NCBI GenBank assembly: GCA_025059875.1
Contig: JANXCT010000001.1
Span: 496,001-560,000, forward strand
Source of the DNA: Candidatus Kapaibacterium sp.
Lineage (GTDB): Bacteria > Bacteroidota > Ignavibacteria > Kapaibacteriales > HRBIN21
Length of the DNA stretch: 64,000 bases
Reading direction: 5' to 3'
Shown here: positions 14,405-18,742 of the stretch, in pieces
Numbering within the stretch: the first letter of the stretch is position 1
How the letters are laid out: each line of letters starts with the position of its first letter
The notes under the pieces: model-generated
The model's database searches: none
What the model was told of the DNA's origin: nothing
Seen by the model: only the letters and a program-made list of their open reading frames with translations
Translations under genes and position numbers: made by a program

Positions 14405-15802
14405 ATGTTCTTCCGGCTGCTTTACGACGAGGCTCTGGCGCAGGCCTCCTACTTCGTAGGATGCGAAGCCACAGGCGAAGCATTGGTGGTGGATCCAACA
14501 CGAGATGTAGACCGCTACTTAGAATTAGCGTCACAGCATGGATTCCGTATTACGGCTGTTACCGAGACCCATATCCATGCTGACTTCCTGTCGGGTACCC
14601 GGGAGCTTGCAGAACGGACTGGAGCGGCAGTCTATCTGTCTGGTGCAGGAACTCCGGACTGGCAGTACCGTTGGGCGACGACGGGGCTAACACTGCTTCA
14701 GAACGGGGATACCTTCCGTATAGGGCACTTGCTCATTACCGCGCTCCACACCCCAGGGCACACGCCCGAGCATCTCTGCTTTGCTCTGACGGATCGAGGC
14801 GTAGGAGCAACCCATCCGGTGGGCGTCTTTACGGGAGATTTCCTGTTCGTTGGGGATGTTGGGCGACCGGACCTCTTGGAAAGCGCTGTTGGACAGCGCG
14901 GAGTAGCTCGGCAGTCGGCGGAGGTGCTCTTTGACTCACTTGCCATCTTGGAGACACTGCCCGACTTCGTCCAAGTCTGGCCTGGACATGGTGCCGGTAG
15001 CGCCTGCGGCAAGACGTTGGGAGCAATCCCGCAATCAACGATTGGCTATGAGCGCCGCTACAACCCGGCTTTGCAGATAACGGATCGTACGCGGTTTGTT
15101 GAGTTCGTCCTCCAGGGGCAGCCTGACCCACCACTGTACTTTGCACGGATGAAGCGCCTCAATCGGGATGGGGTACCAATCCTTGGCAACCTGCCACAAC
15201 CGCGGCGACTGACGCTCCAGGAGCTCCGTCCCCTCCTGCCGGAAGTCTGGGTTGTTGATACTCGGTCATGGGGGGAGTTCCAAGAAGGGCATCTCGAAGG
15301 ATCAATCTTCGCTCCGTTGACGAGGGCCTTTCCGACGGTAGTGGCATCGTACGTACCGGAAGATGCCCCAGTCGTCTTGATCCTTCCAGAGTCTCTCCTC
15401 CTGGAGGCCATACGACAACTCGTGCGCGTCGGGGTGGACCGGATCGTGGGGTACGTTGAACCGCACCATCTTTCAGCAGCTAACGGCTTGCTGCAGTCGC
15501 TGCCTACCGTAACTGTGGACGAATTGAGCTCGGTACGGCCCGATTCCGTCGTATTGGTGGACGTGCGCAATCACGACGAGTACGCAGCTGGGCATATCCC
15601 AGGTGCACTCCACGCTCCCTATGCACGGCTGCCCGAACACCGGGGTCGGTTGCCGAAGGACGCAGAGCTGATAGTCTACTGCTACTCCGGTGAGCGTTCA
15701 GCGTATGCGGCTGCTTTGCTGCAGCGGTATGGCTTCCGAGTGCGCCAGTATGCTGGGGGATTCCGGGAATGGGCGCTTTCAGGAGGACCCGTTGAGCGAT
15801 GA
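14405..15802 (+). CDS. CstB-like persulfide dioxygenase-rhodanese fusion
   Basis: The 465-residue protein joins an ETHE1-like metallo-beta-lactamase domain (about residues 1-250) to two rhodanese domains. The iron-binding region is THIHADFLSG (His56, His58, Asp60), followed by HTPGHTPEH (His119) and FTGDFLFVGDVGRPD. The first rhodanese (about 270-355) has LILPES where the active Cys loop should be and so is a pseudo-domain. The second (about 370-460) has the active loop CYSGERS with Cys426. This order is the one described for CstB, which oxidises low-molecular-weight persulfides to thiosulfate. It suggests cytoplasmic sulfide/persulfide detoxification. The 3' end overlaps rsmH by 24 nt, tail to tail. 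Confidence 0.88.
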   Translation: MFFRLLYDEALAQASYFVGCEATGEALVVDPTRDVDRYLELASQHGFRITAVTETHIHADFLSGTRELAERTGAAVYLSGAGTPDWQYRWATTGLTLLQNGDTFRIGHLLITALHTPGHTPEHLCFALTDRGVGATHPVGVFTGDFLFVGDVGRPDLLESAVGQRGVARQSAEVLFDSLAILETLPDFVQVWPGHGAGSACGKTLGAIPQSTIGYERRYNPALQITDRTRFVEFVLQGQPDPPLYFARMKRLNRDGVPILGNLPQPRRLTLQELRPLLPEVWVVDTRSWGEFQEGHLEGSIFAPLTRAFPTVVASYVPEDAPVVLILPESLLLEAIRQLVRVGVDRIVGYVEPHHLSAANGLLQSLPTVTVDELSSVRPDSVVLVDVRNHDEYAAGHIPGALHAPYARLPEHRGRLPKDAELIVYCYSGERSAYAAALLQRYGFRVRQYAGGFREWALSGGPVER

Positions 15803-16711
15803 GGGTAGACGTTCAGCGGCGCGGAGCCGTGCGCTCCGACAGCGAGGGTTCTGTTGCACTTCTGCTGCTGATGGCCGTAAAGGCTTTGGGGTAAGGATGC
15901 GGAAGAGTGGCACGGAACTTGTTGATGTTTGCCGAAGGAAGTCTTTGACAATTCGGTCCTCCAGTGAGTGGTAGCATAGCACAACTAGGCGTCCGTAGGG
16001 TGCCAGCAGTTTCAGTGCGCACTGGAGGGCATCCTGAAGGGCACTGAGCTCGTCATTGACAGCGATGCGGAGAGCCTGGAAGATACGGGCCAGCGACTTC
16101 AGGCGGTGGGGAGGTGGGACGACCTCCTCTACCACCGCCCGAAGATCCGCTGTAGTCCGTAGGGGCGCGCTCCGCCGGCGTTGTACGATCCGACGGGCGA
16201 TCGCCCGGGCTCGAGGCTCTTCGCCGTAGTAGCGAAAGAGCGACGCGAGCTCTTCCTCCGATGCTGCTGCCAGCAGGGCTTCCGCTGTCTGGGGAGAGTC
16301 GGGGCTGAAGCGCATGTCTAAAGGCGCCACCGCTCGGAAGGTGAAGCCACGCTCGGGAGTGTCCACCTGATGCCACGACAACCCTAGGTCCAGTAGGAAG
16401 CCCTGCACCTTCCCCATTACATCGGTCAATAACGTGCATGCATCCCGGAAGTTCGCCCGCAGCAGGCGGAGGCGCCCCTCCTGGATTTCCCGCGCGAATC
16501 GCTGTTGGCAGTATGCTAATGCTTCTGGGTCCACATCCATCCCAATCACGTACCCTGCTGATAGGCGCTCGAGTAGTGCTGCCGTATGTCCACCCCCACC
16601 GATCGTTCCATCTACGTAGATGCCCTCTGGCGAGCAGAACCATAGCGCTACAGCCTCCTGCAGCATTGCGGGTACATGGTATGGTCTATTGCCATCAGAC
16701 AGCGGTCTCAT
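15779..16711 (-). CDS. rsmH: 16S rRNA m4C1402 methyltransferase RsmH (MraW)
   Basis: RsmH N4-methylates C1402 of 16S rRNA using S-adenosylmethionine. The 310-residue protein begins with HVPAMLQEAV, then the SAM-binding loop VDGTIGGGGHTAALL, DLGLSWHQVDTPERGF, a central helical insert, and CYHSLEDRIVKDFL near the C-terminus, all family signatures. Its start overlaps the mraZ stop by 4 nt. The usual downstream division genes (ftsL, ftsI, murE, mraY) are absent; instead the convergent dioxygenase gene overlaps its 3' end. Confidence 0.97.
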   Translation of the reverse strand: MRPLSDGNRPYHVPAMLQEAVALWFCSPEGIYVDGTIGGGGHTAALLERLSAGYVIGMDVDPEALAYCQQRFAREIQEGRLRLLRANFRDACTLLTDVMGKVQGFLLDLGLSWHQVDTPERGFTFRAVAPLDMRFSPDSPQTAEALLAAASEEELASLFRYYGEEPRARAIARRIVQRRRSAPLRTTADLRAVVEEVVPPPHRLKSLARIFQALRIAVNDELSALQDALQCALKLLAPYGRLVVLCYHSLEDRIVKDFLRQTSTSSVPLFRILTPKPLRPSAAEVQQNPRCRSARLRAAERLPSSLNGSS

Positions 16712-17154
16712 GAAGAGCGCATAACATGTGCGGCAACCTCTTCATAGGACCGAGCAAAGCTTACTAAGTAGCGCTCGAATTCCGCTGGGTTCCAGAACTC
16801 GATGTGGTCTACCACTCCGACAATCGTCACCTTGGAGTTGATCCCGGCGAACTCGAGATGGCGGCGGGGGAGCATGATGCGTTGCTGGGCATCCAGTTGC
16901 ACCTCTTCGCTCCATGCCAGGATCATTCGGAGGAAGAATCTCTCTTGCTCATCGTACTGATTGAGGCGGGCGAACCGCTCTTCATACTTTCGCCATTCGT
17001 CCAAGGGGTAGGCTACAATACAGCGGTCCACTCCGCGAGTGACAATGAACGTGTCTTGTGCTTCTGGAGAGAGGCTTCGACGCATCTTAGCCGGTAGGCT
17101 CACACGGCCCTTAGCATCTAGGGAGTGGGTCTCCTGTCCCTTGAAGAACGCCAC
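16708..17154 (-). CDS. mraZ: MraZ, DNA-binding regulator of the division/cell-wall operon
   Basis: The 148-residue protein has the two tandem MraZ/AbrB-like halves. The first has SLDAKGRVSLPAKMR and the second LDAQQRIMLPRRHLEFAGI, each with the conserved GR(V/I)xLP pattern. MraZ represses its own operon by binding direct TGGGA-type repeats; such repeats occur 32-64 nt upstream of the start (see 17186-17218). It is followed by rsmH with a 4-nt overlap. Confidence 0.96.
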   Translation of the reverse strand: MAFFKGQETHSLDAKGRVSLPAKMRRSLSPEAQDTFIVTRGVDRCIVAYPLDEWRKYEERFARLNQYDEQERFFLRMILAWSEEVQLDAQQRIMLPRRHLEFAGINSKVTIVGVVDHIEFWNPAEFERYLVSFARSYEEVAAHVMRSS

Positions 17155-17185: not shown

Positions 17186-17218
17186 TGGGAGAATCTCCCA
17201 CTTTCTCCCACCACTTTG
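17186..17218 (-). promoter_or_regulatory. Candidate MraZ operator
   Basis: On the minus strand TGGGA occurs at 17210-17206 and again at 17200-17196, exactly 10 bp apart. AAAGTGG occurs at 17217-17211 and 17204-17198. A perfect 15-bp dyad (TGGGAGA-A-TCTCCCA) covers 17186-17200. TGGGN repeats at 10-bp steps are the described MraZ target in proteobacteria, and AAAGTG repeats are the one described in Mollicutes. Location just upstream of mraZ supports autoregulation. Confidence 0.6.
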
Positions 17219-17405
17219 TCTACAAAAAAGGCGGATGCGCTCCATCGCACCTCGCTACCCTTGGTCGTAGGGGGACGGAGTAGGGCTATGAGCCTCAAAA
17301 TGAGCGTTTTCTTACAAAAATCGTGCATTTGGCATACACCTATCGCCGTTATTGTGTGTTTACAGTTGAAGTCCTCCCGCGGCGGACAGCATTAGGTAGA
17401 GTGCC

Positions 17406-17424
17406 ACTGAACAGATTCTCAGTA
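17406..17424. promoter_or_regulatory. Candidate LexA operator, upstream copy
   Basis: ACTGAACAGATTCTCAGTA contains the perfect half-sites ACTGA and TCAGT separated by 8 bp. It recurs as a near copy 31 bp downstream, so both would face the same side of the DNA helix. Confidence 0.5.
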
Positions 17425-17436
17425 TCAGCGTGACGG

Positions 17437-17455
17437 ACTGAATAGATTTTCACTA
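17437..17455. promoter_or_regulatory. Candidate LexA operator, downstream copy overlapping the promoter
   Basis: ACTGAATAGATTTTCACTA differs from the upstream copy at 3 of 19 positions. It contains TAGATTTT (17443-17450), a 7 of 8 match to the -7 element, so a repressor bound here would block the promoter. Confidence 0.5.
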
Positions 17456-17487
17456 GCTTTGTGGTCGCCGCACCAACTCAAAGGAAG

Positions 17488-18147
17488 ATGGCGGAGCGGG
17501 GAACCGGACTGAGCCGTCGGCAGCTCCAAGCTCTTCGCTGTATTGCTGAGAGTATTGCAGAGCGGGGATTCCCTCCAACCATTCAGGAACTGTGCCACGC
17601 GCTAGGATGTCGCTCTACTAATGCCGTGTACGGGCTCCTCAAGGCCTTAGAAGCAAAGGGATACCTCCGTCGCCTTGCTAGAGGACGTGCTCGGAGTCTA
17701 CAACTGACGGAGAGAGCTCTTGGAGGTACAGGTCTGTACTCTCAGAAGCACCACGGGCGTGTAGTTCCAGTACTGCGCTCTGGAGTGGTGTTGGATCCAG
17801 CTGAGGTGTTCCGGGTACCTGTTGGCTACGTATTCTTGGATCCCCTAGTGTTCCCTGAGGAAGAGCTCTTCGCCCTCACCGTTCCAGATAGCGCTCTGCA
17901 AGGGGCCGGGATTCTGAGTGGCGACATCGTCATCGCAGTTCGCTCTAGGGAACTAGTTCCTGGGAGACTCATCGTGGCTTGGGTCAGTAGTACCCTCTTG
18001 GTGCGATTTCTGTATCAGACTCCGCGTGGATGGGAACTGCAAGCTTCCGAGCGCTCTGTGCCACCGCTACGCTTCCATGCTTCTGATCAGGATGTCGTCG
18101 TCGTAGGGCGGGTCATCGGCCTGTTGCGCCGCTTTACTCAGGGCTGA
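17488..18147 (+). CDS. lexA: LexA-like repressor lacking self-cleavage residues
   Basis: The 219-residue protein has an N-terminal winged helix like LexA (LSRRQLQALRCIAESI, then GFPPTIQELCHALG and STNAVYGLLKALEAKGYL) and a C-terminal S24-like domain. Ser135 of VPDSALQGAGI matches the catalytic serine. However, the general-base Lys is Arg173 (SSTLLVRFL), and the scissile Ala-Gly is replaced by Val-Leu in RSGVVLDPAE (about residues 98-107). By family knowledge it should not self-cleave normally. A GTG at 17461 would lie 5 nt after the second dyad, so I prefer the ATG at 17488. It may be an SOS repressor with altered release or a regulator that no longer answers DNA damage. Confidence 0.82.
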   Translation: MAERGTGLSRRQLQALRCIAESIAERGFPPTIQELCHALGCRSTNAVYGLLKALEAKGYLRRLARGRARSLQLTERALGGTGLYSQKHHGRVVPVLRSGVVLDPAEVFRVPVGYVFLDPLVFPEEELFALTVPDSALQGAGILSGDIVIAVRSRELVPGRLIVAWVSSTLLVRFLYQTPRGWELQASERSVPPLRFHASDQDVVVVGRVIGLLRRFTQG

Positions 18148-18268
18148 AAACCGACAGTTCGGTACGGTGATGTAGGTCATGTCGGAAAGCTGGAGATTCT
18201 TGGGAATTTTGCCCACGGAAAGGGTCTCTCTTCTTGTGTATGCAAGTCTCACAATCTTTGAAACTCCA

Positions 18269-18742
18269 ATGCGCTGGCTCAGAGTACTCTTCATGCTGCT
18301 TCCGTTGGGATTGCTGGGCTGTGGCGGCGCGGAGAAGCCAGAGCCATCTAAGGTGGAGGAAAACGCAGCAATGGAACAGGCTGCAAAGGTCCCGACCGTC
18401 GCAGGTGTCTCTGCGGAAGTTATGCAGCGCGGTAAGCAGATCTACGACTCGTACTGCAAGACATGCCATCAAGCGAGCGGACAGGGGATCGCTGGTGTCT
18501 ACCCTCCACTAGCGAAGTCCGATTACCTGAACGACAAGCGTAAGACTATCCACTCAGTGGTCTTCGGGCTTTCGGGGCCGATTGTAGTTAATGGGAAGCA
18601 GTACAATGGGGTTATGCCTGCGGCCCCATACAACGATCAAGACATCGCAGCAGTACTGACCTACGTGTACAACAGCTTTGGCAATCCAGGCGGCATTGTG
18701 ACCCCTGAGGAAGTTGCAGCGGTCCGCAAGGCTGGAAAGTGA
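18269..18742 (+). CDS. Lipoprotein c-type cytochrome
   Basis: The 157-residue protein starts MRWLRVLFMLLPLGLLGC, a lipoprotein signal ending at Cys18, so it is membrane-anchored outside the cytoplasm. A linker of about 35 residues leads to a single class I cytochrome c domain with the haem motif CKTCH and a later GVMPAAPY whose Met is the probable sixth ligand. It could carry electrons to a terminal oxidase or other acceptor. The frame is open back to 18179, but only the ATG at 18269 gives a signal peptide at the very start. It ends 3 nt from the convergent M23 gene. Confidence 0.9.
   Translation: MRWLRVLFMLLPLGLLGCGGAEKPEPSKVEENAAMEQAAKVPTVAGVSAEVMQRGKQIYDSYCKTCHQASGQGIAGVYPPLAKSDYLNDKRKTIHSVVFGLSGPIVVNGKQYNGVMPAAPYNDQDIAAVLTYVYNSFGNPGGIVTPEEVAAVRKAGK

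Follow-up and report, generated by a model that had tools for sequence, protein, structure and literature searches.

LexA proteins without the usual self-cleavage chemistry have been described before. In Synechocystis sp. PCC 6803, LexA carries Gly-Gly in place of the scissile Ala-Gly and Asp in place of Ser119 and is thought not to run an SOS response (PMC3091678); its activity is controlled by other routes, possibly phosphorylation (PMC7567884). The non-canonical LexA of Bacteroidetes has a CI-like helix-turn-helix, keeps both Ser-Lys and Ala-Gly intact, and does run the SOS response (PMC8565304). At the mraZ locus, the described regulator is MraZ, which binds GTGGG-type repeats (PMC5282649). 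Control of the mraZ/dcw cluster, which is widely conserved, is poorly understood beyond a few models. A search of the open-access literature, which was not exhaustive, found no published pairing of LexA with mraZ.

Here, we analyze a LexA-like gene that lies next to mraZ in a 64,000-nucleotide stretch of DNA (the window) from a Kapabacteria-type assembly (98% complete) that has named relatives among MAGs of the class Ignavibacteria, Candidatus Kapaibacterium included. Our comparisons make it probable that the gene encodes a LexA-derived regulator that is unable to cleave itself, belongs to a conserved family spanning the phylum (GTDB Bacteroidota), and is dedicated to the mraZ control region. 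This suggests that an SOS repressor has been re-used as a dedicated switch at mraZ.

The LexA-like gene and its product

The gene is an intact ORF of 219 aa (17488–18147, plus strand), characterized through Pfam, alignments, and a structural model. ATG 17488 is the likely start codon because the upstream GTG at 17461 sits within a putative -7 promoter box (17454–17461). The product has a LexA-type winged-helix domain at residues ~6–69 (Pfam LexA_DNA_bind, PF01726, E=1.8e-16) and an S24-like domain at residues ~91–215 (Pfam Peptidase_S24, PF00717, E=2.8e-10), while its score against the NCBIfam lexA equivalog stays below the cut-off (94.8 vs 110.95 bits). The top PDB match, by both sequence and fold, is 1jhh, an S119A mutant of LexA. 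An AlphaFold model (mean pLDDT 81; 10-sequence alignment, domain arrangement unsure) compares to LexA C-domains with TMt ~0.8 and rmsd ~2.5.

Divergent from this gene lies mraZ (16708–17154, minus strand; Pfam MraZ, E=1.3e-30), followed by rsmH/mraW (15779–16711, minus strand; Pfam MraW methylase, E=1.2e-89); the mraZ cluster in this genus consists of mraZ-rsmH only. The neighborhood also includes murA and an M23 peptidase gene. Downstream is a c-type cytochrome gene (18179–18742, plus strand), an order that is kept across the genus and not in other families; the cytochrome gene is duplicated in two congeners and may be co-regulated with the LexA-like gene.

Alignment with E. coli LexA places Val-Leu at the scissile A84-G85 and Arg173 at K156, as the sequence-only reading had proposed for both sites, and reveals neither a conserved Lys nor an Ala-Gly at shifted positions. 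That reading also held that the catalytic Ser was kept as Ser135, which we correct: HMMER and MAFFT alignments agree in placing Ala136 at S119, with Ser135 pairing with M118. The protein has neither residue of the Ser-Lys dyad (Ala136, Arg173) and no scissile Ala-Gly or Cys-Gly (Val-Leu), so that, by alignment, all three cleavage elements are gone, not two. In E. coli LexA, Arg at position 156 alone shifts the pH dependence of cleavage and does not fully abolish it; the Lys-to-Arg change is thus insufficient for a claim of uncleavability, which is carried by the loss of Ser. Loss of the entire dyad together with the scissile bond, throughout the clade, makes it appear unlikely that RecA-driven self-cleavage removes the protein, and the original expectation to this effect is now on firmer ground. 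The DNA-binding half, which had been called normal, does retain the winged helix and N41, but E44-E45 of the E. coli recognition helix are replaced by Tyr-Gly.

A phylum-wide family of predicted non-cleavable homologs

The same residues are missing in relatives. Among 44 homologs drawn from ~18 families of the phylum, Arg is found at position 156 in 44/44, Ser at 119 in 2/44, and Ala-Gly in 0/44; because all relatives show an equal state, the condition of the window protein is neither chance nor sequencing error. In a maximum-likelihood tree of 60 proteins, a single branch parts the non-cleavable homologs from canonical LexA (support 100/99; 200/200 bootstrap trees), and in families f16 and f13 a canonical LexA coexists as a distinct protein. 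A single-query scan of named genomes had detected non-cleavable members only in Kapabacteria/Ignavibacteria; members across the phylum required a profile search. Judging from the tree and the residue pattern, the LexA-like protein is a member of an old, conserved, and separate family, and not a decayed lexA. The description of its machinery as "lost" therefore holds for the cleavage residues, but not as a picture of a LexA in decay; the family is tied to mraZ.

The profile search covered 396 genomes of the phylum, and we then read 20 loci, hand-picked from the matches for family spread and including a few whose residues were known beforehand; in this set, non-cleavable members outside the class were divergently adjacent to mraZ in 11/11 cases, vs 0/9 for canonical LexA genes. 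Within the order, the gene adjoins mraZ divergently in f1, f4 (with the exception of genome G036), and f3 (G100), and this arrangement also occurs in f16, which belongs to the same class and lies outside the order. In the present analysis, we define a class of non-cleavable LexA-derived mraZ-locus regulators by Arg156, absence of Ala-Gly, placement on the separate branch, and paired TGAA-N6-TTCA upstream of mraZ, all of which are seen for the window protein.

Putative palindromic operators between the two genes

Two putative operators lie in the intergenic region: an mraZ-proximal palindrome, ACTGAACAGATTCTCAGT (17406–17423), conserved across genus, order, and phylum, and an mraZ-distal one, ACTGAATAGATTTTCACT (17437–17454), recognized by comparison and overlapping the promoter of the LexA-like gene. 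Both are 18-bp palindromes of the form ACTGAA-N6-TTCAGT (core TGAA-N6-TTCA), 31 bp apart start to start, and such pairs are found again in congeners as well as other families, where their starts are separated by 31 or 40–42 bp. Abutting the distal operator is a putative -7 box of the LexA-like gene, TAGCTTTG (17454–17461, plus strand), that is conserved in congeners and follows TAnnTTTG, which we take to be the Bacteroidota-type -7 promoter consensus. The distance between the operators and the mraZ start is 250–430 bp, and the putative mraZ promoter is likewise far away from them, which tells against our main explanation.

Because a count of the motif inside the window alone, allowing 2 mismatches, is not significant (3 vs 1.6 expected), the evidence for these operators is comparative. 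In each of 73 genomes, we scanned the 650 bp preceding mraZ, with a score threshold of 18 of 24. Within the order, the best pair reached ≥18/24 in 22/28 genomes with the protein vs 0/41 without it; the rank-test p of 1.5e-9 for this co-occurrence is overstated, as the genomes are related and the counted species lack phylogenetic independence. A motif-blind search recovered these same pairs in most of the genomes concerned. The exact ACTGAA-N6-TTCAGT is rare, with 14 sites in the 22 protein-bearing genomes searched for it, 11 of the 14 upstream of mraZ. The genomes G003 and G004 have no further copy of the exact core CTGAA-N6-TTCAG beyond that location. Members from other classes show pairs of the ACTGAA or GGTGAA/AGTGAA type, with the core TGAA-N6-TTCA, and 8/11 score above shuffles (p ≤0.005). 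The pair in G388 is clear, but its spacer is 7 bases long, beyond what the pair scan could score; like the pairs in G159 and G451, it counts as divergent or shifted, and no recognizable operator pair was found in G011 and G101, exceptions that weigh against our main explanation.

Departures from the standard pair partly coincide with changes in the protein. Six protein-bearing genomes of the order have no standard pair, and three of them (G013, G048, and G101) have Arg/Lys for Asn41. In G013 and G048, we found ACCAAT-type pairs 29 bp apart, scoring 22 vs 19–21 in shuffles; a match between these pairs and the changed recognition-helix position 41 is suggestive. G021 carries a variant ACTGAT pair, and G047 has a single weak site in place. 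The Arg41-type f16 genomes have a conserved half-site, GTTTAGC, but no significant operator pair.

Taken with the co-occurrence, the paired architecture leads us to infer that the protein binds these sites, most likely as two dimers on the paired TGAA-N6-TTCA operators. Bound protein would likely block its own promoter in the source genome, since one palindrome overlaps the TAnnTTTG box of the LexA-like gene, giving negative autoregulation. Transcription of mraZ would be modulated from the same shared sites, alongside MraZ acting at its own boxes nearer mraZ. As self-cleavage is not available, another route of release would be needed, which could be a ligand, modification, proteolysis, or dosage, independent of RecA.

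Additional elements in the mraZ leader

Between the operators and mraZ lies a further conserved element, TGTAAACACACAATAACGGCGATA (17341–17364, minus strand; consensus TGTRAAC-N5-ATAAY-NN-CRATA), which in relatives is often followed by a terminator-like hairpin. We rejected this element as a standard promoter, as it shows no convincing -33/-7 or sigma-70 pattern, and the mraZ leader gave no Rfam match to a known RNA. It is possibly a leader, an attenuator, or an unrecognized promoter. Nearer mraZ are direct repeats resembling MraZ boxes, GTGGGAGAAAGTGGGAG (17195–17211, minus strand, by sequence), which are presumably of the MraZ binding-site type. In some f7 genomes (G019, G052; L173, L178), sequences resembling DnaA boxes, TGTGGATAA/TGTGGATAG, lie between the conserved element and mraZ.

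The conserved element raises a mechanistic variant of our main explanation, in which the protein would be an activator, not a repressor, of an unrecognized promoter at TGTRAAC-N5-ATAAY-NN-CRATA, with the operators helically phased upstream. In relatives, the distance from the element to the proximal operator clusters at 68–71, 79–81, or 90–91 bp, so the spacing looks as if it were held on a single face of the helix. However, statistical backing for this phasing is weak (p ~0.04, from a rough test over five classes of distance), the element matches no known promoter, and a core of it is also present in some genomes without the LexA-like protein. We therefore regard activation as doubtful, although it is the best placed of the alternatives considered here.

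Palindromes that remain at mraZ when the gene moves

A second alternative is that the protein regulates only itself: the palindromes would serve the promoter of the LexA-like gene, and mraZ would be an incidental neighbor. An operator does overlap or abut the gene's own TAnnTTTG-like box in the source genus and in f4. The alternative is nonetheless improbable in view of genomes in which the gene lies elsewhere. In G036, it is on a different contig, and both palindromes are still upstream of mraZ, now divergent from a gene for an FAD-dependent oxygenase. Likewise, the gene has moved in f5, f7, and f10, where the palindromes are retained upstream of mraZ and none were found at the relocated genes. 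No operator pair is present at the promoters of the individual relocated genes of other families L049, L050, L051, L053, L055, L058, L059, L061, and L064. In f5, the gene upstream of the palindromes encodes an LD-carboxypeptidase and is co-oriented with mraZ, which leaves mraZ as the sole evident target. That the palindromes stay at mraZ after the gene moves argues for a retained function at the mraZ locus, beyond autoregulation.

Probable separation from the SOS response

The protein could also be an SOS repressor that still reports DNA damage, inactivated through another RecA-linked route such as trans cleavage or a protease. It retains the LexA fold, its half-site is similar in sequence to the E. 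coli CTGT-N8-ACAG box, and RecA is present in the genome. Against this, the scissile Ala-Gly is absent, no operators (≤1 mismatch) were found at recA, and no Y-family polymerases were found in the source genome or four congeners. The sites are concentrated at mraZ; elsewhere, sites with ≤1 mismatch are barely above the frequency of a reversed control in most genomes, and we accordingly rejected a broad SOS-like regulon. G014 and G028 show some excess of such sites over the control. Where a canonical LexA coexists (f16 and f13), it is a separate protein. The window protein is itself the only S24 protein found in the assembly, so the search for a second, canonical lexA, suggested along with the initial reading, returned none; apart from RecA, the genus has no SOS partners. 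Altogether, a continuing RecA-linked role seems quite unlikely, and we infer that the regulator acts independently of RecA.

The source assembly contains two strong RecA matches (G000:C1:353177–353962 and G000:C12:9062–9844), while congeners have one; the second copy may be a duplicate or a contaminating contig.

That the gene is a decaying, pseudogene-like LexA without function is scarcely credible: catalytic residues are gone and identity within the genus is only 45–62%, pointing to fast divergence, but the frames are intact, Arg173 is invariant, the winged helix is conserved, and linkage and operators are kept over the phylum.

Comparison with known systems

Our preferred explanation remains a non-cleavable, LexA-derived regulator at the mraZ control region. 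A broader version can be offered only tentatively, with chances somewhat short of even: in this version, the mraZ (division and cell-wall) locus would long ago, and throughout the phylum, have gained a second regulator that arose from LexA as self-cleavage was lost; it would work together with MraZ in a complex whose two operators and third conserved element are held in helical phase, uncoupling the locus from, or replacing, the SOS link of DNA damage to division. "Division control" would be indirect in this genus, because the mraZ cluster there has just mraZ-rsmH. A LexA-derived partner with defined putative operators provides a directly testable mraZ regulator for a whole phylum and would represent a case of an SOS repressor turned RecA-independent. 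It also means that a "lexA" annotation in this phylum may not imply an SOS response.

Among known regulators, E. coli LexA (TIGR00498) shares the winged-helix and S24 fold, LexA mutants are the best matches of the window protein, and the operator form CTGA-N8-TCAG resembles E. coli CTGT-N8-ACAG. Unlike E. coli LexA, the window protein is without the Ser-Lys dyad and Ala-Gly, and its putative sites are at mraZ, not at SOS genes. The non-canonical Bacteroidetes LexA proteins are S24-domain regulators from the same broad phylum; in contrast to them, the window protein combines a LexA-type winged helix with a dead S24 domain. MraZ is likewise a regulator at the mraZ leader, but its fold is unrelated and its GTGGG-type repeats are present separately. 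A non-cleavable LexA working outside the SOS response has a precedent in Synechocystis, where it belongs to a single cyanobacterial lineage and has a broad regulon, whereas the family described here forms a separate phylum-wide clade, with Arg at position 156 and tied to mraZ.
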